Below are positions 1,103 through 52,007 of a stretch of DNA of 64,000 bases, in pieces (within the stretch, counting starts at the first letter, position 1; each line of letters starts with the position of its first letter). Position numbers and translations under genes: made by a program. A model generated the notes under the pieces. It did no database searches. It was not told the origin of the DNA and worked only from the letters and a program-made list of their open reading frames with translations. Source of the stretch: Desulfofarcimen acetoxidans DSM 771 (lineage in GTDB: Bacteria > Bacillota > Desulfotomaculia > Desulfotomaculales > Desulfofarciminaceae). The stretch lies in the NCBI RefSeq assembly GCF_000024205.1, contig NC_013216.1:124001-188000 (forward strand), given 5' to 3'.

Positions 1103-1906
1103 TCAGGCCAGAGCCGCTCCCAAAGCACCCACTAACTGAGGGTTTTCCGGTATAAGCAGAGTAGTTTGCAGCATTTCCCCCAACATTTTGACAATACAGG
1201 GATTTAAAGCTACGCCGCCGGTAAAGGCAACAGGCGGTTCTAAGCCTACCCGCTGCAGCATGCTTGCTGCCTTCTCCGCAGTTGATGAGTGCAGGGCACT
1301 GGCAATGTCACGCCTGGTATAACCTCCGTGCAGTAATGAGATGGCTTCCGATTCGGCGAAGACAGTGCACATATTGCTGATTTTGATGCCCGGTTTGCCT
1401 TGCAGGGCATCTTGACCGAAATCTTCGGGTGAATTGTAGCCCAGAGCCGCAGCCATGACCTCTAAAAATTTACCGGTTCCGGCCGAGCATTTGTCATTCA
1501 TTTGAAAGTCAGTTACATTGCCTTTGCTGTCTAATTGAATAACCTTGGTATCTTGACCGCCAATATCGAGAATCGTTTTGGCCTGCGGAAAAAGGTTGGT
1601 TACTCCAATCGCATGGGCCTTAATCTCAGTAATTACCCGCTGGGCGAATTCGGCTTTAGCAGCATGTCTGCCGTAACCTGTGGCGGTAATTTGAACAGAA
1701 TTCGGAGTTGTCTCATCTGGACTGGCAGGAAAACCGGTTTTTATCTCGAAATCCTGCAGAGCCCGGTGTACTGAAGCCAGCATTTCACCGGCTGTCTTTA
1801 GTGGCGTAAACCCGGTGTTCAGCAGGTTGGTCAGTACTACCTGATCTTGCTGCAAAACCACCATTCCAATAGTTCTCGATCCTATGTCTATACCTATATT
1901 AATCAT
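1103..1906 (-). CDS. acyl-CoA dehydratase activase (BadF/BadG/BcrA/BcrD ATPase)
   Basis: The product is a homodimeric [4Fe-4S] ATPase of 267 aa that delivers a low-potential electron to its partner by ATP-driven conformational change. Visible ASKHA features are the N-terminal phosphate-1 loop INIGIDIGSRTIGMVVL, DIGGQDTKVI (about residue 115), the cluster-binding cysteines in NDKCSAGTGKF and ISNMCTVFAESE, and the adenosine motif FTGGVALN near residue 228. Length is normal. It is the downstream gene of a pair with the double-cubane reductase, 3 bp apart, so the two are co-translated. Homologues activate 2-hydroxyacyl-CoA dehydratases, benzoyl-CoA reductases or double-cubane proteins; the neighbour points to the last. 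Confidence 0.9.
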   Translation of the reverse strand: MINIGIDIGSRTIGMVVLQQDQVVLTNLLNTGFTPLKTAGEMLASVHRALQDFEIKTGFPASPDETTPNSVQITATGYGRHAAKAEFAQRVITEIKAHAIGVTNLFPQAKTILDIGGQDTKVIQLDSKGNVTDFQMNDKCSAGTGKFLEVMAAALGYNSPEDFGQDALQGKPGIKISNMCTVFAESEAISLLHGGYTRRDIASALHSSTAEKAASMLQRVGLEPPVAFTGGVALNPCIVKMLGEMLQTTLLIPENPQLVGALGAALA

Positions 1907-1909
1907 TTT

Positions 1910-3184
1910 TTAACCAATCAACTCCAAAAATGCTTCTATACGTGTTTTCAGCTGGCCGACATCTTCTTGGCCATAATCGGTTTCAATTCTTAAAAGTGGG
2001 ATGCCTTTTTCTTTTAACACTTTTTCCACCCGATTGGCCTCTACGGCATATGGATCACAGAAGGTAAGGGCACAGTGAATAATTCCGTCAGCCTTGTACT
2101 CCTCTGCCAGCTGCAGCAATTTTTCCATTCTGCCTTCGTTAGGTGTGAAGCAGGCACAGTTGATGTTGAGGTATCTGGCAGCTATTTGTTCGACTGTCTG
2201 GTCCATGTTTTCTCCTGTCTCAGCAACCAGGTTCTCGAAATATCGTAAACCGGTGCAGAGTTCCTCCGCTACTATGACTGCTCCACTCTCTTCAATTATA
2301 TGAGGAATTTTCCAGTTAGGTATGGCCATAGGGGTGCCGGTCACGATAAGGCGTTTAGCGGTTGTTTCCTTAACTCCCTGACTGTTTTTTACCCTTTCTT
2401 CCAATTCATCACAAAGCTCATTGACTTTTTGGGTAAACCTGCTTACATCGTCATACATGGCAATTTGTTCAATAAGCAGGCAATCCTTTCCGCTGATCGG
2501 AGCGGGGTTGTTCTTTCTCAGTTCAGATAAGCGCAGTAAGGCTTTTCTTTTGCCGTTAACGTCTTTAATAGCCTGCAGCAGTGCTTCTTCCGTAATTTTT
2601 TGGCCGGTCAATTCTTCTGTACGGTTCAGCAAATCCTGTACTTCGCTATGCCACAGGCTTTTGTCTTTTTCCCTTTTCATTTGAGGCGTTTCCATAACGT
2701 GCACCGGGATGTAGTCGTTTAAAATCTCAAAGGCCTTCTTTTTGCCGTCACAGGTGGTTTCCCCCACCACCATGTCACAGGACTCAAAATAGGGACAGAC
2801 TTTAGCCAGTTTAAAACCCATAAAGGATTTAATCAACGGGCAAATATTTCTGGGCAGGACTTTTTCTGCCTGGGCAGTGCCTATTTCTATGCCGGAACAA
2901 AGGCCGATGCAGATGCCGCCTGCCGCGCGAATTATTTCTTCAGGTACAAAAACACAGAAAGTGCCGATTACTTTGCCTCCCGCCGCTTTATGCTGCTGTA
3001 GCTCATGGATGCGCAAGCCGTGTATTTCACTGACGACAAAATCAAAGTATTCCATGCCTGCCGGGCGGTTGAACTGGTTCATATAAACTTCTCCGTAGGC
3101 AGGGGGAAGGGCCTGCAGCAGTTGGTCGTGGGCCTCTAGGTCCAGTCCCACGGATTCCCACATGGGTCGGTAGTCAGTTGTCAT
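1910..3184 (-). CDS. double-cubane-cluster-type anaerobic reductase (HgdB/BcrC-like)
   Basis: This single-gene protein of 424 aa belongs to the 2-hydroxyacyl-CoA dehydratase D-component superfamily. Cysteines occur in the expected places: GTFCVFVPEE, GGICIGLCSG, RNICPLIKS, KVCPYFESCD, TTCDGKK and, later, NINCACFTPNEGR. Because there is one subunit gene plus an activase, rather than two dehydratase subunits, it best fits the double-cubane-cluster proteins, which reduce small inert molecules at very low potential in an ATP-dependent way (known from Carboxydothermus). The physiological substrate is unknown. Dehydratase or acyl-CoA reductase activity remains possible. The start ATG at 3184 lies just after an AGGTGCAC-like site. 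Confidence 0.82.
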   Translation of the reverse strand: MTTDYRPMWESVGLDLEAHDQLLQALPPAYGEVYMNQFNRPAGMEYFDFVVSEIHGLRIHELQQHKAAGGKVIGTFCVFVPEEIIRAAGGICIGLCSGIEIGTAQAEKVLPRNICPLIKSFMGFKLAKVCPYFESCDMVVGETTCDGKKKAFEILNDYIPVHVMETPQMKREKDKSLWHSEVQDLLNRTEELTGQKITEEALLQAIKDVNGKRKALLRLSELRKNNPAPISGKDCLLIEQIAMYDDVSRFTQKVNELCDELEERVKNSQGVKETTAKRLIVTGTPMAIPNWKIPHIIEESGAVIVAEELCTGLRYFENLVAETGENMDQTVEQIAARYLNINCACFTPNEGRMEKLLQLAEEYKADGIIHCALTFCDPYAVEANRVEKVLKEKGIPLLRIETDYGQEDVGQLKTRIEAFLELIG

Positions 3185-3353: not shown

Positions 3354-4649
3354 CTAACAATTAAAAATCAATTCTTGCAGCAGTCTCATATCCTTTAAGT
3401 AGGATTCCTGCTCCACCAGCATGTTTTCTTTTATAAATTCCTCCAGCATACTGATAGCCTGAGGATAATCTAAAAGCGTTAATTCGTCTTCTTTGGGAAC
3501 TAAAACATTAAAGTCCGCAAATCCAAGGCCGTACAATTTTTTTAGCATATATATAGCTGCCTGGTCGAAATCAGTCCAGACAAGCAGCTTATTTAAGCCG
3601 GCAGCCTGCCAAATTTTAAGGAAATTATAGACAGCGGAGCGAATCTGACCGTCGAAAGCAATCATTCCCACGTGGCGGCGTTTTTCATGTGGCATGTGAC
3701 CCGCCAGTTTTCTCAGCACAGCCCTGTTCTCGGTTAAAAATAGTGTGTGTACATCTTTGGCCTGCAGTGAGATTATTTCAGCTATTTCTTCGCCGGATAT
3801 GTTGGATATAACGGGGCATTCGTTGAAATCCCAGCGGCCAAATGTAAAATCTATACGGCAGCGGGCAGAGAAGCTTAAAGCATAGTTGCCTGATACCGTG
3901 GTTAGCCCTATAGCTTCAGGACTGTCCTGTAATATTTCCTCCAGCAGTGTCTGGTACAGTGTGCGCTTGCCGTCATAAGTCTTGCTGGCGGCGTTGCGCA
4001 TATTTTCTGTCTCGGAAAAGGTACCGATTTCCTTCCAATCGAAAAAAGGCATGGTTTGGGCGGCGCTTAGCAGTGATAATAAAAATTCCGCTCTTTTATC
4101 TACACGAAGATTTTGCCTGACTTCCCGACGGGCAAAATTCCTGATTTTTTCAAAACCCGGGTGGTCGTAAGGGTTGACCAGTGCTTCCAGGCGCAGCATA
4201 TATTTATCAGCTTCTTTGCGGTTGGCGTTATTTTCAGACAGCTCCTTTTTATTCCAGCTTTCTATCAAGGGCAGCCCCGGAATGAAATATACGCCTTTGC
4301 TGGAAGTGCCCCGGTTAGCCAGTTCGATAACCCGAATGAGTAAACCGTTTTCCACCCAGTTGCGTATATTGAGTTCAAAGGAAAGGGATGAATTCCGGTA
4401 ATTAAGCCAGTTTTTCAGCTGTTTCGCTGTCTTTTTGTTTTGCCAGCGGCTGCCCTGAAAGGCGGGCGGAATACTGGGCGAAGCTTCTCCGGATAATTCA
4501 AATATTTTGCTCGTATAGGATACTCTTGATTTTATTGTTTTGGCCGACAGACTATAGACTCGATCCCTTATGGTTGCGTCTTTAGAGCTAATTGTCTCAT
4601 CTCTGGCAAGATATTTTTGCAAATACAGCACAATGTTTTCCGGCAGCAT
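3354..4649 (-). CDS. jetD: JetD, Wadjet topoisomerase-VI-like nuclease subunit
   Basis: This 431-aa protein has an N-terminal winged-helix/DNA-contact region and a C-terminal Toprim-like domain. The acidic Toprim signature is visible as LFLTENRAVL (Glu) and, further on, VWTDFDQAAIYML (DxD), as in the nuclease subunit that cuts circular DNA after condensin loop extrusion. It is divergent from jetA with 94 bp between the start codons and has its own site (AGGGGTGATTGC before ATG 4649). In most Wadjet loci jetD is the last gene of one operon; here it is on the opposite strand. The call rests on the motif plus the neighbouring jetA/jetB. Confidence 0.85.
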   Translation of the reverse strand: MLPENIVLYLQKYLARDETISSKDATIRDRVYSLSAKTIKSRVSYTSKIFELSGEASPSIPPAFQGSRWQNKKTAKQLKNWLNYRNSSLSFELNIRNWVENGLLIRVIELANRGTSSKGVYFIPGLPLIESWNKKELSENNANRKEADKYMLRLEALVNPYDHPGFEKIRNFARREVRQNLRVDKRAEFLLSLLSAAQTMPFFDWKEIGTFSETENMRNAASKTYDGKRTLYQTLLEEILQDSPEAIGLTTVSGNYALSFSARCRIDFTFGRWDFNECPVISNISGEEIAEIISLQAKDVHTLFLTENRAVLRKLAGHMPHEKRRHVGMIAFDGQIRSAVYNFLKIWQAAGLNKLLVWTDFDQAAIYMLKKLYGLGFADFNVLVPKEDELTLLDYPQAISMLEEFIKENMLVEQESYLKDMRLLQELIFNC

Positions 4650-4743
4650 GCAATCACCCCTTTTTCTAATTCTAATACATGACCGGGTATGAAAAAAAGG
4701 TTATAATGATTATTATGGCTATATGAAAAGCGGGTGAAACAGT

Positions 4744-6240
4744 ATGCAAGGAACGATGTCCTTTCTTTCCTTTGACGAGAACAATCGTGATGCCCTTCAG
4801 CAAAGCTTTAACGACCTGGCCAACTTGAGCCGCATTACAGACTTTTTATATGGCGAGCACGGGCAATTTGAATGGCAGCTGGATTTCTTTCGGGTTATGT
4901 ATCTAATTTTTCAGTCTGCCTTTTCTCCTGATGACAGGATCCGGCACGAAAACAGCCTGGCCAACCGTTTTCAGCATCGATTCGGTCGCAAGCCTCCGGA
5001 AGGGCGGTTGTCGCTGTTAATTGGACGTATGCAGACAGTGGGCTGGCTTTTGAAAACACAGGACAGTTATATGGTTACTGAACTGGGAATTCGCATGATA
5101 TCCTTTCTATTTGACTTGACCCAGCAAAATTTTCTCTTTCACCAGAAAGACGAGCTGCAAAAGGCCATATTTTTATCCCAACTGACCGGTTTGAAACTGG
5201 AAATGCTGCAGCAGCTGGATATGGATACAGAGCCGGAGTTTTTAACCTTGCTGTACGCTATTCAAAATCTTACCGCTCAGGTAAGGAAGAATATTCCCCT
5301 CTACGTGCAGAAAAAAACTGCTGTAGAGGAAATCTTAAAGTTGAAGGATTTGATGGAGGAATCTGTAGCCCGTATTGAAAAATATGTCCGGACAGAAACA
5401 GTATTGGAGAGAATTGACGATTTTCGTTTAAAGTATCACTATGTCAATGCCGTCTTAAATGAAGCTACTTCTGTCTGCCAGGAGGGTCTTGGTGAGGTAA
5501 TTAGGGCGATTGAAATTGCCTCAGCTGAAATTGCCCATTCTCCTATTGCTCCGGAAAAATTCCAAGCCTCCTTATTGCAAAAAATCAAGGAGGAATTTAT
5601 CAAGGAGCAAGCCGGAGTGCAGTCTGTTTATGAGATTATTTTACAGATGGAAGTGGAGCAAAACGAAAGATCGCTGGCCTATCTGCCCGTGAAAATCTGG
5701 GGCGGTATGTCGGCTCATGATATATATAAAACCATTAAAATGGCCGAACAGTCTGAAATTGATTTCAGTGGCGCGGCACGTCGCGGCCCGCTGCTGGACG
5801 GAGAAACCTTGCTGGACGTGCCGGAACCGCAGTACCTGACACTGGAAGAGATCAATCACCTGGAAAGAGAGGAAGCTGTGCTGGACCGGGAGAATTTCTA
5901 TGACCGGGCTTTTCAGGACATTACCGGCTTTGTACTGAACCACCCGGAGGAGGAAGATACCGTGCAGGATTGGATTCTATCTCTGCCCGGTGAAGATAGA
6001 TTTAATGCCTCGGTATTTTTGGACTTTTTGACTTATATGCAAAAGCTCGGTTTGCTGGAAATTGACCTGGAAAAACGCCGGCAGCCGCGTCATCGTCCTC
6101 TGGACTGGTCTTTCCTGGTTCCTGCCGGGTACCCCTGGGTGCTGACCGGCCAAGAGTTGGTGAAGTTTCCTCAGAGAAAGCTTTTGGAAGGTTATGACAG
6201 GATGCAGTATAAAAAGTTTTTGAAGAAGGAAGAAGAATAA
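4744..6240 (+). CDS. jetA: JetA, Wadjet kleisin-like subunit
   Basis: This 498-aa protein has no obvious catalytic motif. It has an N-terminal winged-helix-like part (residues 1-130), a long helical region (about 150-320) rich in Glu/Lys/Leu heptads, and a C-terminal region around 370-470. That is the layout of the kleisin that bridges the SMC dimer in Wadjet complexes. It is followed after 55 bp by the KITE subunit and preceded divergently by jetD, which makes the identification mainly contextual. A GCGGGTGAAAC site precedes ATG 4744, and a TATAAT at 4702-4707 in the divergent intergenic region could be its -10 box. Wadjet subtype not assigned. Confidence 0.78.
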   Translation: MQGTMSFLSFDENNRDALQQSFNDLANLSRITDFLYGEHGQFEWQLDFFRVMYLIFQSAFSPDDRIRHENSLANRFQHRFGRKPPEGRLSLLIGRMQTVGWLLKTQDSYMVTELGIRMISFLFDLTQQNFLFHQKDELQKAIFLSQLTGLKLEMLQQLDMDTEPEFLTLLYAIQNLTAQVRKNIPLYVQKKTAVEEILKLKDLMEESVARIEKYVRTETVLERIDDFRLKYHYVNAVLNEATSVCQEGLGEVIRAIEIASAEIAHSPIAPEKFQASLLQKIKEEFIKEQAGVQSVYEIILQMEVEQNERSLAYLPVKIWGGMSAHDIYKTIKMAEQSEIDFSGAARRGPLLDGETLLDVPEPQYLTLEEINHLEREEAVLDRENFYDRAFQDITGFVLNHPEEEDTVQDWILSLPGEDRFNASVFLDFLTYMQKLGLLEIDLEKRRQPRHRPLDWSFLVPAGYPWVLTGQELVKFPQRKLLEGYDRMQYKKFLKKEEE

Positions 6241-6295
6241 ACAATTTCGGCAATATATATTTTTTGTAAAATAGTTTAGTAAAAGGAGTTATCTT

Positions 6296-6946
6296 ATGAG
6301 CGGTGATCTTTATCTTACTCCGAGGCAAAAAAGGGTGGTACAGTTTATAGCGGCTACCGGAAATGTCAGCTTGATGCGCCATCATACAGGTGTAACCAGA
6401 CAGGATATTAAAAAGATGCTGGAAATCACGGATAATCGCGATTTGGAAGCATTTATAAAAGTATGTAATCTTGTGTTAAAGGAAGAGACTGTCCCGGCAC
6501 AGGTATTATATGACGACATTTTGAACAGATATGTTTACGTGCAGACGGTTGATCCTGTGGTTTTGCTTGACCGAATTCCGGTGAAAACGCTTCTTTTGTT
6601 TTTGTTCATGTACTACCAGCAGAGGGCTTTGGGCCATCCTCAGACTAGACTTTTAGATTTGCTGGAGATTGTTGATTCGTCCCTGGTGGAGAATCCCCGT
6701 CAAAAGGTGCTGGCCGCACTGAAGCCGCTGCTGGACTATAACCTGGTAAAAGAAGATGACGAAATTTACCGTGTCACAAAAATCGGCGATGCTTTTATGA
6801 CTCCTCTTTTTCTGAAGAAAATGACGGATGTTACATTGAATAAAAATTATGATCTGGATGTGATTTTGGAGTTTTATCGAAAGGTAATTCCCAGACCGGA
6901 GGAACTGGGGGCAGAGGCAACTGATTACCAGCTTTCTTTATTTTAA
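6296..6946 (+). CDS. jetB: JetB, Wadjet KITE subunit
   Basis: This 216-aa protein is predicted to contain tandem winged helices: residues 1-75 with LTPRQKRVVQFIA, and 120-190 with LLDLLEIVDSSLVE then YRVTKIGDAFMTPLF. That is the size and order expected for KITE proteins (MukE/ScpB-like), which bind the kleisin and DNA in SMC complexes. A clear AAAGGAG site at 6282-6288 fixes the ATG at 6296. It sits 55 bp after jetA. The expected next gene, jetC, is not adjacent. The call depends on context as much as on sequence. Confidence 0.75.
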   Translation: MSGDLYLTPRQKRVVQFIAATGNVSLMRHHTGVTRQDIKKMLEITDNRDLEAFIKVCNLVLKEETVPAQVLYDDILNRYVYVQTVDPVVLLDRIPVKTLLLFLFMYYQQRALGHPQTRLLDLLEIVDSSLVENPRQKVLAALKPLLDYNLVKEDDEIYRVTKIGDAFMTPLFLKKMTDVTLNKNYDLDVILEFYRKVIPRPEELGAEATDYQLSLF

Positions 6947-7078
6947 TTATGGCAGCGATATTATTGAATTGCTGGTTTATTGCGCAAATATATTAAACTG
7001 CAGCGCTAAACTCTTCGCACATAATGATATTCTATCAAAATTATCTGCATTAAGTAACAGATAAAAGAGGTTTGAAGG

Positions 7079-7636
7079 GTGGGTTTGAATGTGCCAACTG
7101 TTTCAACCGGCAAAAAATATACTATTGAGGATTATTTAAAGTTAGATGACGGCCAGAGTTATGAGTTAATTGAGGGGGAATTGATTTTGGTTCCGCGGCC
7201 ACGGACTAAACACCAGAAAATTGCCAATAGGTTTTTTGCAAACTTAGACCGTTTTGTACTTATGAATAACCTCGGGGAAGTTAATGGAGATGTGGACGTT
7301 TATCTGGAAGAGGAAGTTGTTGCCCCGGATGTATTTTTTGTTGCCAAAGAGAGACTAACTATTGTTGGAGAAATGAATATTCAGGGCGCACCGGACCTGG
7401 TAGTTGAGGTATTGTCTCCGTCTACGGCCAGGTATGATAGGAAGAAAAAGAGCCGGTTATATTTTAGAAATGGAGTTAAAGAGTATTGGCTGGCAGATCC
7501 GGATCAGCAGTTAGTTGAAGTTCTTGTTGCAGGAGAAAAAGAATGGAAATGGATTGGAGTATTTGATCGGGAGGACATCTTAACTTCTAATTTATTGCCC
7601 GGTCTCGAGATAAATTTAGGTGAGATCTTTCGATAA
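7079..7636 (+). CDS. Uma2 family (DUF820) endonuclease-like protein
   Basis: A 185-aa protein with the PD-(D/E)XK-like Uma2 signature: YELIEGELILVPRP near the N-terminus, VVAPDVFFV (Asp), PDLVVEVLSPSTARYDRKKK (Asp, Glu and a downstream Lys) and KEYWLADP. Uma2 proteins are abundant in Firmicutes and Cyanobacteria; most have no proven function and many are thought to be mobile nucleases. The GTG at 7079 follows AAAAGAGG by 8 nt. It lies between jetB and the split-off jetC, so it may have come in with whatever separated the Wadjet genes. Confidence 0.85.
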   Translation: MGLNVPTVSTGKKYTIEDYLKLDDGQSYELIEGELILVPRPRTKHQKIANRFFANLDRFVLMNNLGEVNGDVDVYLEEEVVAPDVFFVAKERLTIVGEMNIQGAPDLVVEVLSPSTARYDRKKKSRLYFRNGVKEYWLADPDQQLVEVLVAGEKEWKWIGVFDREDILTSNLLPGLEINLGEIFR

Positions 7637-7785
7637 CTAATGTTATAATGGCGAATATATAAAACATGGAAGTAATTCTTTTTTCATGGTAAATTGAGTT
7701 TCAACCAACATTTTGGGGTTCTTAAAGCCTTGAAAATAAGAAATTTATTGAAAATAAAAATTTATGAGTCGTGGAGGGATGTAAA

Positions 7786-8661
7786 ATGCAGGTTTCTGAA
7801 CATGTTCATGCTTTGAAAATACCTTTTCAAGTGAAGCTGCCGAGCGGTGTCGCGCTTGACCGGTTTGTATATGCCTATCTCATATACGGCAAAGAGATAT
7901 GCCTTATTGACAGCGGGGTGACCGGTGCGGAGGAGCTTATTTTTGATTACATTAAAAAAACAGGGCGAAGACCGGAGGAGATTTCACTGCTGGTTCAGAC
8001 TCACGCTCATCCCGATCATATCGGCGCAACAAGGGCAATCAAAAACGCCACCGGTTGTAAGGTAGCAATTCACCGTGCGGAAGTTCCCTGGCTTGAGGAT
8101 GTGGAATTGCAGGTTAAAGAGCGACCGGTTCCCGGTTTTCATAACCTTGTGGGCGGTTCGGCCAAAGTGGATCTTATTCTTGAATACGGCAGCGTGCTGA
8201 AACTGGACGAAGTTTTGCACCTGGAAGTAATTTATTCTCCCGGTCATTCCAAAGGTTCTGTTTCACTTTTATTGCCCAAGGATAAGGTGCTTTTCTCCGG
8301 TGATGTCGTCCCTTTAGCGGGAGACATGCCAATCTATGATGATGTTATGGCCTTGGTAAGTTCCGTTAAGAGGCTGAAGAATGAGAAATTTGAATTGCTT
8401 TTGGCCGCCTGGGACGAGCCCAGGGACAGTAAACAGGCTCGCGGGCTAATGGACGAAGCACTGCATTATTTAAAGAGAATTGACGATGCCGTTGTCAAAG
8501 TGTCCGGCGGTGAACAGGCAAAGGTAGATGAAGAATTCTTAAAGCAGGTATTGGCCGAGTTGGGTTTGCCTGCGGCGGCAGCTAACCCGTTAATAGCCAG
8601 ATCCTTTGCATCACATCTAAAGATTTTAGAGAGATACTATTTGCCTATTCAGTGGTTTTAG
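7786..8661 (+). CDS. MBL-fold metallohydrolase
   Basis: The protein is 291 aa from ATG 7786, placed 6 nt after a GGAGGGA site; an upstream GTG at 7771 lies on the site itself and is less likely. The zinc ligands are visible: THAHPDHIG (HxHxDH), YSPGHSKGS (His) and LFSGDVVP (Asp). A C-terminal helical region (about 210-290) is typical of glyoxalase-II-like or AHL-lactonase-like family members. Substrate cannot be read from sequence. It is convergent with pstB, with a perfect palindromic terminator between them. Confidence 0.85.
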   Translation: MQVSEHVHALKIPFQVKLPSGVALDRFVYAYLIYGKEICLIDSGVTGAEELIFDYIKKTGRRPEEISLLVQTHAHPDHIGATRAIKNATGCKVAIHRAEVPWLEDVELQVKERPVPGFHNLVGGSAKVDLILEYGSVLKLDEVLHLEVIYSPGHSKGSVSLLLPKDKVLFSGDVVPLAGDMPIYDDVMALVSSVKRLKNEKFELLLAAWDEPRDSKQARGLMDEALHYLKRIDDAVVKVSGGEQAKVDEEFLKQVLAELGLPAAAANPLIARSFASHLKILERYYLPIQWF

Positions 8662-8705
8662 ACTTGAAGACCCTTATACAGAATGCTTTTGAATGGGCAG
8701 AGTTG

Positions 8706-8744
8706 ATAGTCAAAGCCCCGGTAACTTACCGGGGCTTTGACTAT
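8706..8744. terminator. bidirectional terminator between MBL gene and pstB
   Basis: Perfect 19-bp inverted repeat with a 1-nt centre: the arm ATAGTCAAAGCCCCGGTAA and its exact complement. It lies between two convergent genes, but without a strong T-run on either side. Confidence 0.75.
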
Positions 8745-8784
8745 TCTGCAGTTAGGACCATAAACTTATTTATTCTCTGCTTTT

Positions 8785-9531
8785 TCACCATATTAATCCA
8801 GAGAAATAATCCTTTGTTTCCTGCCGATCAGGGGTGGAGAACATTACTTCAGTCGGCCCGCTTTCAACAACACAGCCGACTGACATAAGAATTGTATTCT
8901 GCGCTATTCTTCGAGCCTGAAAAAGATTGTGTGTGACAAGAATAACAGTTAGCCGGTTGGACAGGCTTAATAATAATTCTTCTATTAATTTTGCAGAAAC
9001 CGGGTCTAAATTAGAACAGGGCTCATCCAGCAATAATACTTCAGGGTTAACCGCCAGTGTTCTGGCTATGGATAGTCTTTGTATCTGACCGCCTGAAAGT
9101 TCCCGGGCCGGTTTATGCAGTTTATCTTTAACTTCCTGCCATAGGCCGGCTTGTTTTAAACAATGCTCAGCTGTATAATTTAACTGCTTATTATTTGCCC
9201 CTCCCAGGTATCTTATCCCGAAAATCACGTTCTCTTTGATGCTTAAAGGCAAAGCAACCGGCGTTTGAAAGACTATGCCTATTTTGCGGCGTATTTCTGC
9301 CGCATCTCTTTCCTGATATATATTTTTACCGTACAGTAAAATTTCACCGCTGCAGCTAAAACCCCTGTCCAGCTCGGCTGTCCTGTTTATGCTCCTTAAT
9401 AGGGTAGTTTTACCGCAGCCTGATGGTCCGACAATAGCGTAGATAACCTGTTCTTTAAATTCCAGGTTGATTTTCTTTAAAACCGGAGTGCCATTAAAAA
9501 AGACACATAAATTCTTAAGATGAACAGACAT
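8785..9531 (-). CDS. pstB: phosphate ABC transporter ATP-binding protein PstB
   Basis: This 248-aa ABC ATPase energises phosphate import. Walker A is GPSGCGKTTLLRSIN (residue 34 on), the Q-loop is GIVFQTPVALPLSI, the signature is LSGGQIQRLSIARTLA, Walker B is LLLDEPCSNLDP, and the H-loop is VTHNLFQA. It is the last gene of a pstS-pstC-pstA-pstB operon. No phoU follows; instead there is a terminator. The Q-loop region PVALPLSI and the length fit PstB, although the signature cysteine PCSNLD replaces the usual PCSALD. Confidence is high from the operon. Confidence 0.9.
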   Translation of the reverse strand: MSVHLKNLCVFFNGTPVLKKINLEFKEQVIYAIVGPSGCGKTTLLRSINRTAELDRGFSCSGEILLYGKNIYQERDAAEIRRKIGIVFQTPVALPLSIKENVIFGIRYLGGANNKQLNYTAEHCLKQAGLWQEVKDKLHKPARELSGGQIQRLSIARTLAVNPEVLLLDEPCSNLDPVSAKLIEELLLSLSNRLTVILVTHNLFQARRIAQNTILMSVGCVVESGPTEVMFSTPDRQETKDYFSGLIW

Positions 9532-9546
9532 AAATAAGCTCCTTAG

Positions 9547-10386
9547 TTAAACTCCTTTTCTTTTGCAGCCGCGCAGACATAAGGCCGTAATATTTATTGC
9601 CAGCAGCAAAAGCACCAGCAGCAGGGCGGTACCGTAGGCTTTATCCAGCGATATTTGCTGGCTGAACAAAGTATATAGATGATAAGGCAAAGCCATAACC
9701 GGTTCCAATAAGGAGCCGGGTGAACCGGCGGAAATAACGGCAGCCGTAACCATTATAGGTGCCGTGGCACCGGCTGCATAACCCATGGCCAGCAGCAGCC
9801 CGCTTAAGATTGACGGCATTGCCTGAGGAAAAATTATTCTGGCTAAAATGTAGCGGCGAGATACGCCAAGAGATATTCCTATCAGCCGGTAATTTTCATT
9901 AACAGCTGAAAGAGCATCTCTGGCAGTAATCAGAATAAGCGGGAATATCATGATGCCAAGGGTCAGTCCACCTGCCAGTAAAGATATTCCAAAGCCCAGG
10001 TAAACCACTAAGAGGGAATAGCCGAATAAGCCGATAATAATCGAAGGGATTCCTGCCATGCACTGCACAATTAAGTTTATTGTCTGTTTAAATTTTTGAT
10101 TATCTTTGCCCTCAACCAGATAGATAGCGGCAGTAATTCCGGGAATACCCGCAGCGGCAACTGCTATCAATACCAGATAAACAGTGCCGGTAATGGCCGG
10201 CCATACTCCTCCTTCCGAACCCAGGGGCAAACCTTTGGGCGTTAGGGTTAAGAACTCAATGGATAGGGAAGGCCAGCCGCGATAAAACAGGTAGCCCAAT
10301 ATGCTGAACAGTATAACCAGTATAAGCAGGCCTGCTCCCCAAAAAACTGCCAGCCACAGTCGGTCCAGCCATTTCCTGACCGTCAA
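9547..10386 (-). CDS. pstA: phosphate ABC transporter permease PstA
   Basis: 279-aa inner-membrane permease with six predicted hydrophobic segments and the EAA-like coupling loop DALSAVNENYRLIGISLGVSRRYILARIIFPQA (in pieces). It pairs with PstC to form the channel. The start is a TTG at 10386 that overlaps the pstC stop codon, with a GAGGTGAG site inside the pstC end, so translation is coupled. Confidence 0.9.
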   Translation of the reverse strand: MTVRKWLDRLWLAVFWGAGLLILVILFSILGYLFYRGWPSLSIEFLTLTPKGLPLGSEGGVWPAITGTVYLVLIAVAAAGIPGITAAIYLVEGKDNQKFKQTINLIVQCMAGIPSIIIGLFGYSLLVVYLGFGISLLAGGLTLGIMIFPLILITARDALSAVNENYRLIGISLGVSRRYILARIIFPQAMPSILSGLLLAMGYAAGATAPIMVTAAVISAGSPGSLLEPVMALPYHLYTLFSQQISLDKAYGTALLLVLLLLAINITALCLRGCKRKGV

Positions 10387-11282
10387 CTTTTTCTCACCTC
10401 ATTTCCAACCGGACGCCTGAGAAAAGTCAGGAACAGGTTAATGCCAATAATAAAGCTTAAGAGTATTAGACCCGCGGCAAACAGTGCCTGGTATTGCGGG
10501 CTGCCAACCTCAGACGTGCCGATTTCCAGTGCAATTAAAGCGGAAAGTGGTTCTCCCCTGCTGAACCAGGATGTGGGCATCAGCAAGCTGTTGCCGGCCA
10601 GCATTAAAACCGCCATAGTTTCCCCGGCTGCCCGTCCAAATCCTAAGATTAATGCTCCCAGTAAACCTTTCTTAGCCAGTGGCAGCAATACTCTAAAGGT
10701 TAAGTATTGCTTTGAAACGCCTAAGGCCAGTGCCGCTTGCCTGTATTCTGAGGGAACCGAGCGCAGGGCTGATTCTGAGGCAACTACAATATAGGGTAAA
10801 ACCATCACTGTTAATACTAGCGAGGCGCAAAATAAAGATTCACCGCTGGCCATATGAAAAGAAAATTCGAAAAACTTTACCAATACAGTTGCTCCCAGAA
10901 AACCATATACTACAGAGGGTATTCCCGTTAAAATATTTAATACAGGTCTAATTATTCCAGCCAACCAGTCCGGAGCAAATTCCGATAAAAAAACCGCTCC
11001 GCCAAAACCAAGGGGTGAAGCCAGGAAAATTGCACCCAGAGATGTCCACAAGGTGCTGCAGATCATAGTTCCAATCCCCAATTGAGGTGGCTTGAGCACA
11101 GGGTTCCATTCTGTACCGGTGATAATTTTTACCGGTCCTGCCGTCAACCAAACCGGACCGCTTTCCCGGATCATAAAAGCAATAACGGCCAGCAGCAAAA
11201 GTGTGGCACATATAGATATTGCCAGACAAAATATATCCATAAGTCGATCTAATAACTTGCTTCGATTTTTAAAAATATTCAT
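10383..11282 (-). CDS. pstC: phosphate ABC transporter permease PstC
   Basis: 299-aa permease with an N-terminal hydrophobic segment after MNIFKNRSKLLDRLMD and several more membrane spans. The coupling loop reads ESALRSVPSEYRQAALALG, and GRAAGETMAVLMLAGN is the conserved PstC motif. It follows pstS by 174 bp and overlaps pstA by 4 nt. It forms the heterodimeric phosphate channel with PstA. Confidence 0.92.
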   Translation of the reverse strand: MNIFKNRSKLLDRLMDIFCLAISICATLLLLAVIAFMIRESGPVWLTAGPVKIITGTEWNPVLKPPQLGIGTMICSTLWTSLGAIFLASPLGFGGAVFLSEFAPDWLAGIIRPVLNILTGIPSVVYGFLGATVLVKFFEFSFHMASGESLFCASLVLTVMVLPYIVVASESALRSVPSEYRQAALALGVSKQYLTFRVLLPLAKKGLLGALILGFGRAAGETMAVLMLAGNSLLMPTSWFSRGEPLSALIALEIGTSEVGSPQYQALFAAGLILLSFIIGINLFLTFLRRPVGNEVRKS

Positions 11283-11456
11283 GCATTCATCTCTCGCCTT
11301 AATAATTTGTGGGTAGTTGATAACTCAACTACCCACTCGGGATATTAAATATTTCTCCAGAGACTGTATATTATTTTCAAAAGATGTAGATTGAAATAAT
11401 TTCATTTTCCTAATCTAATAAAAATATTTATAAAATTGCATTGATTTAAAATACTT

Positions 11457-12380
11457 TTATTGCCTGGAAGCCGGCGGTATAAATCCCATATCCTCAACTA
11501 TTTTAAGACCATCAGCGGATAAAAGATAATCAATAAAAAGCTGCTGCCGGGCATCCGGTTTGTCCTTTGTTAACAATAACAGAGGACGCGCAATTTTGTA
11601 CTTGCCCAGGGCTATATTTTCTACTGTAGGTTCAATTCCATCAACCTTGAGCACAGCAAGCTTATTTTGATTTTGCGTTACCAGACCGACGGAAACATAA
11701 CCGATGGCATTTGCATTTTCCATCACTTTGCCGGCTAAAGCACCCATGGAAGGCAGTTGAAGCGCTTCCTTAGCTACAGGTGTCCCCTTCATAACTAATT
11801 CATCGAATACTTGACTGGCCCCGCCGCCAAGGTCTCTCACTGCTATAACAATGGGTGTGTCAGAAAGGCCGGGGTCTAACTGCTTCCAGGTTTTTATTTC
11901 ACCGGAGAAGATGCGCTTAATTTCGTCGGCTGTTAAATTAGGTTTCACTTTTAGCACAGGGTTCTGGGGATTGACAGCAATAGTCAAAGCATCCGAGCCC
12001 ATCTTAAAAATGTTGCCCTTTGCCATTTTTTCTTTCTCGGAGTTCGTAATTTCCCGTGAGGCTAAGCCGATATCAACTGTACCGTTAATAGTGGATTTAA
12101 CTCCAAAGCCGGAACCGCCGCTGGAAACAAATATAGTAATTGCTTCTTCAGGCAATTTGGGATCTATTTTATTCCATGTTTTATATTTTTCTGTAAAATT
12201 ATCTGCGCATTTAGCTATAACCGGTGACAGGGTGCTGGAGCCGCCAATTTTAATGGAATATGCCTGACCCTCAGTGTCCTTAATCTGTTCTGTCTGTGCC
12301 TGCTGGTTCTGACTGCAGCCTGCCAGTAAAAATAAACCGAGCAGCAATGAAATAATACTTAGAAAACTTCTCTTTTTCAT
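11457..12380 (-). CDS. pstS: phosphate-binding lipoprotein PstS
   Basis: 307-aa extracytoplasmic receptor. It has a lipoprotein signal (MKKRSFLSII, then LLGLFLLAGC with the lipid-modified Cys22). Phosphate-binding loops are visible as GGSSTLSPVI, SSGGSGFGVKSTINGT with VDIGLASREI, and AVRDLGGGASQVFDE. It is the first gene of the pst operon. The 314-bp region upstream, shared divergently with jetC, should carry the promoter. I could not identify a convincing Pho box. Confidence 0.93.
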   Translation of the reverse strand: MKKRSFLSIISLLLGLFLLAGCSQNQQAQTEQIKDTEGQAYSIKIGGSSTLSPVIAKCADNFTEKYKTWNKIDPKLPEEAITIFVSSGGSGFGVKSTINGTVDIGLASREITNSEKEKMAKGNIFKMGSDALTIAVNPQNPVLKVKPNLTADEIKRIFSGEIKTWKQLDPGLSDTPIVIAVRDLGGGASQVFDELVMKGTPVAKEALQLPSMGALAGKVMENANAIGYVSVGLVTQNQNKLAVLKVDGIEPTVENIALGKYKIARPLLLLTKDKPDARQQLFIDYLLSADGLKIVEDMGFIPPASRQ

Positions 12381-12694
12381 CCATAAGCCTCCCTCAATGT
12401 ATATTTCCTCTTAACGAGTTAATCAATTATCATATTAACATAACCTTTATTAATAAGTAAATTGAAATATAGTTATAGTTCTCAAAACAAATATATTCTG
12501 CCGGTTAAACCTGATATAATAGCATGAAAGGACAAAATTTCGAGGATATTTAACGATATCGCTTAATCCTTAAAAGTTGGTTAAGAATAATTTCTTGTAG
12601 AAGCTAAATATAAATTCTGGCAAATATGATTTTGGGTGGTATTTTTGTGAGTTATAATAAACAAGATTCAATAAAACAATGAGGTGGGAGAACT
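12381..12694. promoter_or_regulatory. divergent pstS / jetC control region
   Basis: 314 bp without a gene, AT-rich. TATAAT sequences occur on the plus strand at 12515-12520 and 12653-12658 and could be -10 boxes for jetC; neither has a good -35 box at 17 bp. A GAGGTGGG ribosome binding site at 12681 serves jetC. Nothing else recognisable. Confidence 0.4.
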
Positions 12695-15600
12695 TTGCTT
12701 TACCCTGTTGAAATGTCCTTCGAAAATGCGAGGGACTTTACCAAAACAAAGATCTATTTCAGCCGGGCCGCCAGAGCCGAAGATGAGATAGAGCGTTTTT
12801 ACCGTGACAATGTTCTGGTAGGCGGTTTAAACGGTACGGGAAAGTCCACCCTGGCTACGGTTTTCATGTGCCTGTTGAACGCCCAGCGGGATGATGCCGC
12901 ACCGCAGGATTTGATTTCTACCAACCGGCTTTTTACCCCTGAAGAGCCCTGGGAGTTTGCCGGGAAAATATTATTTTACAATGACGGTTCGCTGGAGGAT
13001 TATTCGCGTTACATTGAGATAGAAGGCCGTTTCCAGGGCTATACCGATCGGAACCGGGAAGTAAACCGGGTAGCCAAAAAGCTTTTCGTAATTCGTGAAA
13101 GCGATGATCTGTCCGTGTGGAAATCCTACCGTTTCAGCAATGAGGGTTTGCACAAGCACATGCCTTTAGGACAGTTTGACGAAATGCTGGTTAAAATGGG
13201 CATTTCCCCTAAGCGCTATTTGCTTTATTGGAAGCAAGGTGAGACCTATAAGTTTACTAAGATTAAGGATACCGAGCGCTTTCAGTATTTTGCCGATATG
13301 ATGGACTTGACCAAGGATATACTGGCATTGGATAAGAATTTACTGGAGCAGGCCAACCGGGAGGCTGAGCTGGAGAAACTCACCTTGCGCCTGCAGAACC
13401 AGCAGGCTGATTTAAGAAAGCTGGAAATTGACAAGGAGCGTAAAGAAGAGAGGGACAACCTGCTTTATTTGGAAGTTTCGGCTTACCTGGGGCGTGTTAA
13501 TGCCCTGCAGTGTTTCAATGAGGAAGCTCGCATTAAGCTGGATGAAACCTGCCGAAAGCTGCAGGTTGAACTGCAGCAGTCTAAAGAGGCAGCACAGGAT
13601 TTGGAGCAGAGGTCCGGGGTTTTAGCAGGTCAGGATAAAACTTTTCAGGAAAAATACCGGCAGCTGACCGGGAGGCGCAGGCAGCTGGAAGAGGAATTGG
13701 AACAGGTGCGCCTTCGCCGGAAAACAGCGGATGATTTTTTGCGTGATAACGAAAAGCGCTATTTTGAAATCCGTGATCTTCTGGATAAACTGAAAAACGA
13801 GGACACTTCGGTAGAGGAAATACAGAGAAGTTTGGAGCGGTTAAACGGGGAAATTGCTCTGCTGAAAGTATCTCTCAGGCAAAGCCGGGAGCAGATTGAA
13901 AAACTGGGGCATGAAAGCGTTGCGCTGCAGGCGGATATCGAAATGAAAGATAAAGAACTGGAAGAATTAAAGCAACTGCTGGTGGCGGCGGAACTGGTTT
14001 TAAGGGAAAAGGCTTCTCCTGAACGATTGGAGGAAGAGATAGAAAGGTCTGCCGATGAGATTAAGTCGTCTGAAGCCGCTGCCGAAGCTGAAACAGTCAG
14101 AAAAGAAAGGCTGCTGAATAAACTGGCCGCTTATCTCTTTTTGCTGTCAAAGCACCGGGACATGTTGCAGGAAGACCTGCAGGAAATGGATGTCAAGCTG
14201 TCAGATATAAATCGGCTTTTGGAGGAGCAAAAAATCGAAGCAGAACGTCTCCAAGCGGAAAAGCAGGTAATTAAGTTAAGAATGGAGCAGGAGCCTTTAG
14301 CAGAAATTGAAAAGAAGTTTGCTGATCTGGAAGAGGAAAGACAAGAACTGAGCCGGAGCCAGCGTAAGGCCGAGCAGGAAGCAGAAAAGCACAGGGATTT
14401 GTTGGGTCGTGTTTACCGGCTGCTGGAGACTGCTTTACCGGCGGAGGAAGAGAGTTATGAGAGATTAAAGACGGAAGCAGGCAGGGTATCCGGGCAATTG
14501 GAAGCTTATCGCACTGCCCTCTCAGAAAAAAGTGAAGCACGGACGGAAGTTGAGAAAATCTTAAAAAAATATCCTTTGAGTTTGGCGCAGTATCATTCCC
14601 AGTTGTCGGTCATGTCTCAAAATTTAAAGGAGCTGGTGGCTGAGCGAACTGTTCTTGTTGAGGAAGGCCGCCGTTTAGACCTTCTGTCGGAGAATTACAG
14701 CAGGGGTGTCTATAACCAGGCACAGGAGAAAGCTGTGTCCCGACAGTCGGCTGGCTCCTTTCGTTTTGACGAAATATTTGAACTTGCCGGAGCGGAAAAT
14801 CAGCAGGAGAGGGAAAAACGTCTTTCGTTAATAAAATATGCGCTGTTTACGGAAGCAGTAAGCGATGAACTGCAGCCCTCAGGAGAATATTACCATGTGG
14901 GACTGTTTGATTATGCCCCGTCATCTTTAGAGGAACCGCTGCCCTTTGGCCTAAAAATCAAAGATGAGATTTTGCAGCCGGAAAACAGGGGAATTTTATT
15001 GAGCAAGGTGCCGGAAATATCCGGTGATGCTGCCGCCAGAGCTGTCAGCTGGTTAAAAGAGGCCGCACAATTACTGACACCCGAGGGTTATTTAAAGGAT
15101 CGGCTGGGTTGTCGTGGCTACGATCCTGAGGAGGCAATTTATTTTTTAAGCCTTACCGCCAGGGAAAATCACCGTTACCGCATGGCTGCTTTACGTGAAG
15201 CAAATGCCGCTGAGATAATCCGTATAGAGTCGGGCATCTCTGATTTGGAGAAGGAACAGGAGCAAACAAGGGAAAGGCTGCAAGCTCTGGCAGGTATGCT
15301 GTCGGAGCGAGAGCGGCTGGCACGGGAAAGCAGCGTTTTGTCGGAAAACTTATCGGTTTTACAGCAAAAGGAGGAATCACTGCAAGAAGCCTTAGAGCGG
15401 GCCTCCTACCGGCTCCAGGTGCTGAAAAGGGTGCAGGCCGTTTTACATAGCCTGAAAGCTTCTTTGATTGTCGAGGATTCTTTGGCAGTCGAGCAAATTT
15501 CCCAAACTGAAATTCCTTCCTATTTAGAACGCCTGGTAAGTGAACATGCCTCAATAGTCAGCAGAGCCGAACGCCTTACAATTTTACTGGAGGAGCTGAA

Positions 15601-17458
15601 AAGCCTTCGGTCTGAGTTGGGCCGTCTTGCAGAACGGTTGCAGGAGTGGATGGAGAAGCGCAACCGGTATTATGATCTGGAAGAACAGTTGAGAGTCAAA
15701 GAAGAGGACTATAAAGAAGTAGATAAGCTTTCGGCTGAGCAAAACAGGCTGCTGGGGGTGCTTAAAGCTGAACAGGAGCAGCACAGGAAAAATATTGGGC
15801 AGATAAAACACCGTTTGGAAGAATTTCGCAGGTACTTCAGGGAAATGGAGCCCATGGAAACCACCGCCCAAATATCGCTTTTTACCTTGTTGGAGGAAAC
15901 TGCCAGGCTGTATGAGGATTACCGGCAGGTGATTGATGCGATTGAGGTGTCGGTTAAGGACTGGCAGCGCCGCCGGACAGAAGCCTCAGATAGAATAGAC
16001 AGGCTGAAAGCGGAACTGGCGGCAGTCTGGCAGGCTCAAGCAGATTTGATTAAAAGTCAGGATAAAAAGACCCTGGAGAATACTCTGTCTGTACTTAAGG
16101 TCGATTTGGATAAACTTCGTGTTTCTCAGCAGTACTTGGAAAGACATGCTATTGAGGCCAAAGAAAATGAATTGAGGCAGGCAGAGGAGCAGGCGGGTAG
16201 CTTCAGAAAAATAGTGGACAGGCACAGCACAGTTGACTGGTCCTTTCATGCTCTTTATCAGGAGCAGGAAGAGGAGGCCAGAAACCTGACCAGGCATTAT
16301 GCTGATTTGATGGAAGCAGATCGCGAATTGGCTCTGCAATTGGAGCAAAATGACCTGGAGTGGCAGAAAGTAAGATCTGCTTTAAGGAAACTGGAAGAGG
16401 AACTTAAAGAAAAAATTAACGGACAGATACAAAATCAGGCAGGTCTGGCCGAAGCGGAAGAGAAGCTTTCCGGTTATCATAAAGACCTGGTTATACTCCC
16501 CGTTGAAGAAGAGGCTGAGGCCAGGTATAAGGAGCTATTGCTTTTGGATGCCGGTGCAACCGCGCTCAGCCTGGGTGAAATGCTGCCCTCATTAAGAGTG
16601 TTATACAGGGCTAAGTTTTTTGATTCAGTGGAAGAGGGCTGGATGCCTGTCTTCGAGGATTACCTGGCCGCTGTGCAAGTTGAAAAAATAGCCATAGAGA
16701 TGGAAAGTGAGTACAGAGCGGGCCTTCAGCTGGCCCGTGACACAATGAAGAGGATAATCAACACTCTGAAAAAGCAGGTGCAGGAAAATGCTTCTCAGCA
16801 GTATCATTTGGCCCAGAAACAATATGAAACCCTGATCAAAGAGAAACGACAGGCAGAGCAGGCCGCAGCATCGTTAAGGCAGGCAGTGGCGGAACAACAT
16901 AAAATGGCGGAGGGTCTCATAGACAGTTCGGTTCGCTCGGTTTTTCGCAACTTCCAACAAGTGCTTGACCGCCTGGGTTACCAGGCTCAGCTAAACTATG
17001 TGAACAAGGAACAGGGTGAGGGCTGCCGTCGCCTGGTATTGAAATTCCGCAAGAAAAATGAAAAAGCTTTTCGCACGGTTAATGAGCATGGTGGCCTTTC
17101 CGGCGGAGAGCACGCGGCAGTTTCGCTGATGCTGATGTATGCGATTATGGTGGTAAAAGAGAACAATATGGGGATTAAAAGCGGCGGTTACCTGCTGCTT
17201 GATGAGTGGGACGCCAACCTGGATACGATCAACTCCCGGCAGGTTTTTGAGATTTTAAAAAAACTGGGTAAGAAGATTATCAGTATTACCCCACGCAGCC
17301 ACTCTCAGACCTATCTGGAGGAGTTTGGCCTGGTGGTGCGGGTGCTGCAGTCTAAAGGACACTCGATTGTATCTATTTTGGACAAGCAGGCCGACCGGGT
17401 GAATATTGAAGAGATGTTTGAGCAAATGGAACAGGAGGGAGCGTCTTTTTCGAATTGA
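12695..17458 (+). CDS. jetC: JetC, Wadjet SMC-like ATPase
   Basis: A very long SMC/Rad50-type protein of 1587 aa from a TTG start 8 nt after GAGGTGGG. The N-terminal head holds Walker A GGLNGTGKSTL (residues 43-53). Two long coiled-coil arms (about 200-680 and 835-1440) flank a globular hinge-like segment (about 687-835). The C-terminal head holds the signature GGLSGGEHAAVSLML (about 1468) and Walker B LLLDEWDANLD (about 1500). It is the motor that extrudes DNA loops so that JetD can cut small circles. Normally it directly follows jetB; here pst and two other genes intervene. It overlaps the next gene by 4 nt. Other SMC-like nuclease systems are alternatives, but jetABD nearby make Wadjet most likely. 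Confidence 0.87.
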   Translation: MLYPVEMSFENARDFTKTKIYFSRAARAEDEIERFYRDNVLVGGLNGTGKSTLATVFMCLLNAQRDDAAPQDLISTNRLFTPEEPWEFAGKILFYNDGSLEDYSRYIEIEGRFQGYTDRNREVNRVAKKLFVIRESDDLSVWKSYRFSNEGLHKHMPLGQFDEMLVKMGISPKRYLLYWKQGETYKFTKIKDTERFQYFADMMDLTKDILALDKNLLEQANREAELEKLTLRLQNQQADLRKLEIDKERKEERDNLLYLEVSAYLGRVNALQCFNEEARIKLDETCRKLQVELQQSKEAAQDLEQRSGVLAGQDKTFQEKYRQLTGRRRQLEEELEQVRLRRKTADDFLRDNEKRYFEIRDLLDKLKNEDTSVEEIQRSLERLNGEIALLKVSLRQSREQIEKLGHESVALQADIEMKDKELEELKQLLVAAELVLREKASPERLEEEIERSADEIKSSEAAAEAETVRKERLLNKLAAYLFLLSKHRDMLQEDLQEMDVKLSDINRLLEEQKIEAERLQAEKQVIKLRMEQEPLAEIEKKFADLEEERQELSRSQRKAEQEAEKHRDLLGRVYRLLETALPAEEESYERLKTEAGRVSGQLEAYRTALSEKSEARTEVEKILKKYPLSLAQYHSQLSVMSQNLKELVAERTVLVEEGRRLDLLSENYSRGVYNQAQEKAVSRQSAGSFRFDEIFELAGAENQQEREKRLSLIKYALFTEAVSDELQPSGEYYHVGLFDYAPSSLEEPLPFGLKIKDEILQPENRGILLSKVPEISGDAAARAVSWLKEAAQLLTPEGYLKDRLGCRGYDPEEAIYFLSLTARENHRYRMAALREANAAEIIRIESGISDLEKEQEQTRERLQALAGMLSERERLARESSVLSENLSVLQQKEESLQEALERASYRLQVLKRVQAVLHSLKASLIVEDSLAVEQISQTEIPSYLERLVSEHASIVSRAERLTILLEELKSLRSELGRLAERLQEWMEKRNRYYDLEEQLRVKEEDYKEVDKLSAEQNRLLGVLKAEQEQHRKNIGQIKHRLEEFRRYFREMEPMETTAQISLFTLLEETARLYEDYRQVIDAIEVSVKDWQRRRTEASDRIDRLKAELAAVWQAQADLIKSQDKKTLENTLSVLKVDLDKLRVSQQYLERHAIEAKENELRQAEEQAGSFRKIVDRHSTVDWSFHALYQEQEEEARNLTRHYADLMEADRELALQLEQNDLEWQKVRSALRKLEEELKEKINGQIQNQAGLAEAEEKLSGYHKDLVILPVEEEAEARYKELLLLDAGATALSLGEMLPSLRVLYRAKFFDSVEEGWMPVFEDYLAAVQVEKIAIEMESEYRAGLQLARDTMKRIINTLKKQVQENASQQYHLAQKQYETLIKEKRQAEQAAASLRQAVAEQHKMAEGLIDSSVRSVFRNFQQVLDRLGYQAQLNYVNKEQGEGCRRLVLKFRKKNEKAFRTVNEHGGLSGGEHAAVSLMLMYAIMVVKENNMGIKSGGYLLLDEWDANLDTINSRQVFEILKKLGKKIISITPRSHSQTYLEEFGLVVRVLQSKGHSIVSILDKQADRVNIEEMFEQMEQEGASFSN

Positions 17459-18699
17459 CAATTGATACTACTTTTAATAAATTCATTGGCACTTTAATTT
17501 TGTTTTTATCATTTGCGGTTATTTCTTTTAATACGGCTTACGCCTCCGGTAAATTCACTGTCGGTTCAAATTCTTATACTATAGACCAACAAGTAAACTA
17601 TATGGATGTAAGCCCTTATATTAAGGATAATAGAACATATCTGCCTGTAAGGTTCGCTGCAATTGCGGCAGGCGTATCCAATGATAACATTATGTGGAAT
17701 GATGAGGCGCAGACAGTCGTTATTGTCAAGGGAAACCAGGTTGTTCAATTCTCTGTTGGCAACAAGGTCATGTTGATAAACGGGGTAAAAAAACATATGG
17801 ATGTTTCTCCTGAAGTGATGGAAGGACGTGTAATGATTCCATTACGGTTTCTGGCCGAGGCGCTGGGCGCTGATGTAAATTGGGATGCGTCCACACAAAC
17901 CATTACTATAAGCGGAATGATGCAACACCTTCAACAGAGTACAAACTCAACCTACCTACCTGTCTCTATAGAAGTCCCTGCCATACAAAATGAACTACCA
18001 GCTAATACTGTAAGTAAAGATTTTGAATGGAAATACAATGATATAACGTATACATGGCACGTGGTTGTGCCAACTGAGCTGCTTGATTGGGATAGAAAAA
18101 TAAATAATATTGTAGATGGTTTTTATAGCAGCAATGCATACGAGCAGGCTGCGACGCTTAAATCTATGGAAAAAAATATTAAAGATTTAATTCTATCAAC
18201 TTCTTTAGAGTCAAACAATAATTTAACCCCCTGGGTAAATGAACCAAAAAATTATAAGTGGGCTGGATATCATGCAAATAGTTTATCCGCGATCGCTCAA
18301 TCGAATAGTTATGATTACTTTCATACCGCTGAATTTGTTCAAAGTTTTGTGGGTGCTATTCCTTATAATATAACCGATAAGCCCCAATTACCTGCTCAAA
18401 CAATTGTAGATAATGGCGATTGCAAAGATAAATCAATTCTACTTGCATCTATGTTAAAAAATATGGGTTATCAAGTTGCGTTATTAATTTTTTATCCAAC
18501 GTCTGAAGAAGCCGGAGGGCATATGGCTGTTGGAATAGTGTTTAATGATGATCAAATTCCCACAGATAGAGAACTTACCTATTATTTATATGATGGCATA
18601 AAATATTACTTTGCTGAAACTACGACACCTAATTGGCTTATTGGCCAAATAAGTGATGAGGCAAAGGAAAAACAAGCATATGTCTATCCCGTGAATTAA
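17455..18699 (+). CDS. exported protein: copper-amine-oxidase-N repeats + transglutaminase-like domain
   Basis: The 414-aa product starts with TTG 17455, overlapping the jetC stop. A signal peptide (hydrophobic IGTLILFLSFAVISF, cleavage after TAYAS) leads to a copper amine oxidase N-terminal-like domain (about 35-150), with two copies of a motif of the type MDVSPYIKDNRTYLPVRF and MEGRVMIPLRFLAEALGA. The C-terminal half has a transglutaminase/protease-like core with VDNGDCKDKSILLASML (Cys), EEAGGHMAVGI (His) and a later Asp. Such proteins are envelope proteins in Gram-positives. Its translational overlap with jetC is odd, as no role in DNA defence is obvious. Confidence 0.8.
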   Translation: MTIDTTFNKFIGTLILFLSFAVISFNTAYASGKFTVGSNSYTIDQQVNYMDVSPYIKDNRTYLPVRFAAIAAGVSNDNIMWNDEAQTVVIVKGNQVVQFSVGNKVMLINGVKKHMDVSPEVMEGRVMIPLRFLAEALGADVNWDASTQTITISGMMQHLQQSTNSTYLPVSIEVPAIQNELPANTVSKDFEWKYNDITYTWHVVVPTELLDWDRKINNIVDGFYSSNAYEQAATLKSMEKNIKDLILSTSLESNNNLTPWVNEPKNYKWAGYHANSLSAIAQSNSYDYFHTAEFVQSFVGAIPYNITDKPQLPAQTIVDNGDCKDKSILLASMLKNMGYQVALLIFYPTSEEAGGHMAVGIVFNDDQIPTDRELTYYLYDGIKYYFAETTTPNWLIGQISDEAKEKQAYVYPVN

Positions 18700-19421: not shown

Positions 19422-19548
19422 TAGATATAAAAAATGTACAAATTAATTGATAAGAGGGGTGATATTGAATAAATAGTTGAAAATTTACGTAGCAGATAAA
19501 AAAGAAGTTTTAAAAAAGTTAACACAAATATTTCATTGTAGGAAAAAC

Positions 19549-51409: not shown

Positions 51410-52007
51410 ATTTAACACTGTATTTTTGACAAAAACCAGAAATAATCCCAATGAATGATGATAGCCCTCCATCGTCCGTTATTCCATACAGCCTTTTGGC
51501 AGACCCCGCATTTGATGCATCCCAATTAGCGGTGACTGGATTCTGTTGTTCCATTTGTTTTAAGCACCGGTAAACTCCTGAACATAAGGTGTTATTGGTC
51601 CAATATAATAGACATTAGTATTTTGACATGAATCATCAAAATATCTATATATTAAATATTTTAAGAATTTTGTTAATATATCTTATGTCGAATAATATCA
51701 ACTATTATCGTTAAATTATGTAAATTATATTGCAGGATTTTGCCGATTTTGATTGAAGAATTTTATTAAATAGCAATAGATGATTAATTAACGGATAAAA
51801 ACAATGAAGTAAGTTCATGATACATTCAGAGAAATTAATTTTACTTTTAGGAATGAAATAACAAAATTTCTCCTAAAAGTTAGATATAAAAAATGTACAA
51901 ATTAATTGATAAGAGGGGTGATATTGAATAAATAGTTGAAAATTTACGTAGCAGATAAAAAAGAAGTTTTAAAAAAGTTAACACAAATATTTCATTGTAG
52001 GAAAAAC
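51410..52007 (+). repeat. Rhs promoter/leader block, copy 2
   Basis: Near-identical to 18930-19548, including the -35/-10 spacing, the leader hairpin (ACTTTTAGGA/TCCTAAAAGT) and the stretch before the ATG. It contains no other gene. Confidence 0.9.
51623..51651 (+). promoter_or_regulatory. sigma-A promoter for Rhs2
   Basis: TTGACA (51623-51628), 17-bp spacer, TATATA (51646-51651); same as in front of Rhs1. Confidence 0.7.

Follow-up and report, generated by a model that had tools for sequence, protein, structure and literature searches.

A complete type III Wadjet gene set with a separately placed jetC in Desulfofarcimen acetoxidans

Introduction

In Wadjet systems, JetABC serves to extrude DNA and JetD to cut small circular plasmids, all four subunits being needed for the process (PMC10586767). 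As most of the mechanistic work has been carried out on type I, the details discussed here for type III are extrapolated. A type III system comprises an SMC ATPase of the JetC3 kind with its motifs, the kleisin JetA, the KITE protein JetB and the Toprim protein JetD; its subunits share one evolutionary history and, according to the synteny rule of PADLOC, its genes form a contiguous, operon-like cluster. Defence systems fragmented by multiple intervening genes have already been recognised, and PADLOC collects them in the class '[system]_other' (PMC9252829). A literature search for Wadjet genes at separate loci returned nothing specific.

For comparison, seven type III loci were considered (G032, G036, L031, G475, G442, G020 and G006). 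In all seven, jetA, jetB and jetC are contiguous, in agreement with the compactness of known Wadjet loci assumed in a preliminary description of the DNA studied here; jetD stands either in first position or, convergently, at the end, and in G032, G036 and L031 the order is jetD-A-B-C, on one strand and without interruption. Within this small sample, the locus of Desulfofarcimen acetoxidans DSM 771 is the only split one. It was analysed in a stretch of 64,000 nucleotides, referred to as the window, to which positions refer unless otherwise stated. The locus is a real, atypically arranged type III Wadjet and represents a variant of a known system. JetA3 itself is found in 3 of 398 genomes spread over the phylum, the one described here included.

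Organization of the locus

The gene for the Toprim nuclease subunit, jetD (3354-4649, minus strand), is divergent from jetA, coding for the kleisin subunit (4744-6240, plus strand), which is followed by jetB for the KITE subunit (6296-6946, plus strand). The fourth gene, jetC (12695-17458, plus strand), begins with a TTG codon and encodes an SMC ATPase subunit of 1587 aa, predicted to be long-armed. Hence three genes are gathered within 3.4-6.9 kb and jetC is found at 12.7-17.5 kb, just as the preliminary description had placed them, and all four reading frames are open and uninterrupted. The 5,748 bp that separate jetB from jetC host six genes, namely a Uma2-family putative endonuclease gene (7079-7636, plus strand; Pfam Uma2, 9.9e-38; PADLOC candidate PDC-S03, 2.4e-39), an MBL-fold hydrolase gene (7771-8661, plus strand; Pfam Lactamase_B, 7.5e-27) and pstB-pstA-pstC-pstS (8785-12380, minus strand), a second phosphate-type ABC transporter operon assigned with NCBIfam models. 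These neighbours had been named correctly; the pst operon, described as convergent, is so with respect to the MBL gene but divergent with respect to jetC. A perfect 19-bp inverted repeat (8706-8744, strandless) lies where the MBL and pstB genes converge, and the divergent pstS and jetC genes are separated by a spacer of 314 bp (12381-12694), where a gaggtgggag ribosome-binding site precedes the jetC TTG; the region of the jetC start is indeed common with the pstS promoter, as had been proposed. On the jetD side, the locus is flanked by a badF-hgdD pair (1103-3184, minus strand; Pfam BcrAD_BadFG and HGD-D).

Downstream of jetC, a copper-amine-oxidase-N/transglutaminase-like reading frame (17455-18699) has a much lower GC content of 0.365; there is a 4-base overlap between its first TTG and the jetC stop, and the true start is probably located further in. 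Farther on, two giant YD-repeat (RHS-like) proteins are encoded at 19477-26598 and 51936-59984, with partial YD-repeat copies between them (at 34249, 36106, 40800 and 45758), among which IS630- and IS110-like transposases are interspersed. The whole region has the appearance of an array carrying spare C-terminal ends.

Identity and common ancestry of the subunits

Searched with the PADLOC type III profiles, all four proteins find their expected match (JetD3 6.6e-22, JetA3 1.4e-15, JetB3 2.5e-15 and JetC3 3e-56), with E-values that exclude chance. The motifs, which the preliminary description had reported as preserved, are all intact: JetC carries a Walker A motif (GLNGTGKS, at 44), a signature motif (LSGGE, at 1468) and a Walker B motif (YLLLDEW, at 1499), and JetD carries TENR at 306 and WTDFD at 358. 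The locus therefore holds an SMC ATPase of the JetC3 kind with its motifs, a kleisin, a KITE and a Toprim protein. Pfam DUF2399 in JetD passes its cut-off barely. A structure of JetD predicted from two sequences is too poor to be given weight, with a mean pLDDT of 48, and the top matches of the corresponding fold search are Toprim proteins, none with E <0.001; among solved structures, JetD found no match and JetC matched an Smc head only. MukBEF, an SMC-kleisin-KITE system without a gene for the JetD nuclease, was considered as an assignment and rejected, as jetD adjoins jetA.

For each of the four subunits, the nearest proteins are encoded at the same three loci, G032, G036 and L031, the last belonging to Ca. 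Dichloromethanomonas elyunquensis. Identity to these proteins amounts to 29-31% for JetC (over the full length and collinear), 37-38% for JetA, 48-49% for JetB and 38-39% for JetD. In each of the four subunit trees the D. acetoxidans protein is sister to these three, and the resulting four-member clade is supported by values of 100/99 or better; with seven rows per tree, this speaks for concordance and not for dating. In other words, the four subunits have a common evolutionary history. When this clade was compared profile to profile with the other type III loci, each subunit reached a probability of 97-99.9%. Scans of genome contigs for closer JetC relatives yielded only Ca. Dichloromethanomonas, and none came from viral contigs or plasmids; the genomes searched all belong to other genera.

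The clade is also distinguished by the size of JetC, which is of 1587 aa in D. acetoxidans, 1563-1565 aa in the sister clade and 1075-1116 aa in the four other type III loci, so that, among the eight loci compared, a long JetC is confined to the clade of the window protein with G032, G036 and L031. The excess of about 480 residues, observed in the clade formed by the window, L015, L016 and L031, would imply longer SMC arms.

Transcription and control

The inverted repeat at 8706-8744 has a minimum free energy of -38.5 kcal/mol (z -8.35) and is a probable bidirectional terminator, a role that we infer from its structure, as it bears no clean T-run. Since this strong hairpin closes the jetAB side, jetC very likely forms a transcription unit of its own; in any case, its transcription must either run through the opposing pst operon or start at a promoter of its own. 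At least three units would thus serve the system, that is, jetD, jetA-jetB (perhaps with the Uma2 and MBL genes) and jetC. A Shine-Dalgarno-like sequence is found before each jet gene, with a good one ahead of the jetC TTG. The preliminary description had suggested several transcripts with possibly separate control. The former part is well served by the hairpin, and separate control of jetC appears likely from the gene arrangement; the shared 314-bp spacer, on the other hand, contains no PhoP-type direct repeat, and the three matches found elsewhere are at chance level.

A possibility is that the split has been kept because it allows the SMC motor to be controlled separately, from a region that also holds the pst promoter, in such a way that the supply of JetC would switch plasmid restriction on. 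We regard this proposal as very doubtful.

Origin of the separation

The genes found between jetB and jetC have a distribution of their own. PstS has orthologues (58-71% identity) in 16 other genomes, from a search of 113 genomes of the same class, and another pst operon is located at 2.07 Mb of the same genome. PstS, PstC and PstA of the window pass the NCBIfam cut-offs and PstB (8785-9531), at 301 bits, falls short of its own (343); the substrate of this transporter may be other than ordinary phosphate. In four genomes (L087, L094, L095 and L096) hgdD immediately precedes pstS in the same orientation, a conserved link between a 2-hydroxyacyl-CoA dehydratase-type protein and a phosphate-type transporter (hgdD-pstSCAB). 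The window has hgdD and pst on a common strand too, although in permuted order and with jetD-A-B, Uma2 and MBL in between. Orthologues of the MBL protein (51-56%) are present in five genomes of the same class, and jet and pst orthologues are absent beside them in all four surroundings that were read.

Both pst and hgdD seem to be residents of this bacterial order. As pst appears resident and hgdD flanks the locus, a rearrangement, and not a simple insertion of pst, becomes plausible. The preliminary description, which spoke of a system split by a phosphate operon, is correct in that pst lies between the jet genes, but may misstate the history, since a rearrangement fits at least as well as a pst insertion. 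A single block swap would account at once for the permuted order and for the position of jetC; it might have proceeded, for example, by tandem duplication and differential loss once a Wadjet cassette had inserted next to hgdD. Being conceived post hoc, this scenario is put forward tentatively. Alternatively, the Uma2-MBL-pst stretch may have been inserted, or the parts may have relocated independently.

Alternative explanations

We consider it likely that the locus is a complete type III Wadjet and probably a functional one. In this lineage, its compact jetD-A-B-C cassette would have undergone a rearrangement that flipped jetD and put six unrelated genes between jetAB and jetC. The four proteins would assemble as usual, with the kleisin JetA, the KITE protein JetB and the SMC ATPase JetC extruding DNA and JetD, as the Toprim subunit, cutting small circular plasmids; nothing at the locus points to a departure from ordinary Wadjet action, which suggests that the mechanism is the common one. 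That an assembly artefact joined two distant regions is extremely improbable. No point in its favour was found; the genome, published for Desulfotomaculum acetoxidans 5575T, was finished by Sanger sequencing with 8-kb and fosmid libraries and bridging clones, at an error rate of <1 in 100,000 (PMC3035247), which makes misassembly unlikely, the window sits within a single contig of 4,545,624 bases, and neither long repeats nor transposase genes were detected at the junctions of the locus. It is also highly improbable that jetC is part of another SMC system and jetABD an orphan set, an idea that physical distance alone would recommend. JetC matches the JetC3 profile, is collinear over its full length with the JetC of compact loci, occupies the same tree position as JetA, JetB and JetD and has arms as long as is usual in that clade. 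Moreover, both observations that the preliminary description had named as contrary to it turned out in its favour: jetC groups with the same clade as the other three genes, and a second jetC beside another jetAB was not encountered in this genome. A genome-wide search revealed no second JetA, and the only other jetC match is a relic at 2.418 Mb, which leaves a single intact jetC. The relic covers about 128 residues (aa 1347-1474) with 94% identity to the JetC of G032 (L014:10023-10406; genome 2418019-2418399), and no jetA, jetB or jetD match was found in the 19 kb around it. An IS66-like transposase adjoins it, and close by stand three tyrosine recombinases in a row, reminiscent of a RIT element.

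The intervening genes could instead be functional accessories, with Uma2 acting, for example, as a Wadjet partner and pst coupling jetC to phosphate starvation. The match of Uma2 to a PADLOC phage-defence candidate and the divergent promoter region common to jetC and pstS would agree with this, but such genes are absent between the jet genes of all seven comparator loci, the pst and MBL orthologues are found elsewhere without jet genes and the spacer is devoid of a PhoP-type repeat, so that the idea is hardly probable. More weight is due to a decaying relic, in which the subunits would have fallen out of step after the split and the proteins would be intact only through its recency. The flipped jetD, the lack of operon coupling and the TTG start of jetC, and the genuine relic of another jetC in the same genome are in line with this view. 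Likewise, jetA and jetB, which overlap in relatives, are 55 bp apart, a loosened spacing that makes slow decay possible. Nevertheless, about 2,700 codons have remained open, all catalytic motifs and ribosome-binding sites are retained, and the proteins diverged from their relatives (29-49% identity) long ago, though the split itself is undatable; decay is accordingly judged unlikely.

Comparison with known systems

If the rearranged system is active, Wadjet subunits need neither co-transcription nor neighbouring genes, and defence finders based on synteny can under-call complete systems; otherwise, the locus represents a local rearrangement of a known system. In addition, it marks a clade with long-armed JetC in Peptococcaceae-type bacteria.

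With type III Wadjet, as defined by the PADLOC JetA3, JetB3, JetC3 and JetD3 profiles, the locus has in common the four subunits, the profile matches and the catalytic motifs. It departs from the standard arrangement in that jetC is six genes away and jetD is divergent from jetA. The synteny rule is a detection and not a mechanistic criterion, so the interposed genes weaken the notion of a canonical locus, not that of a Wadjet gene set. JetC exceeds by about 480 aa that of four of the seven comparators, a length for which PADLOC already has a profile (PDLC00581, 1,473 positions). The compact loci L031, G032 and G036 share this long JetC and form the sister clade for all four proteins, but, unlike the window, keep their four genes contiguous and co-directional. 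Finally, the arrangement resembles the '[system]_other' class of PADLOC in that a complete gene set is interrupted by multiple unrelated genes, and differs from it in that the genes in between seem to be resident ones, for metabolism and transport, and not an obvious mobile element.
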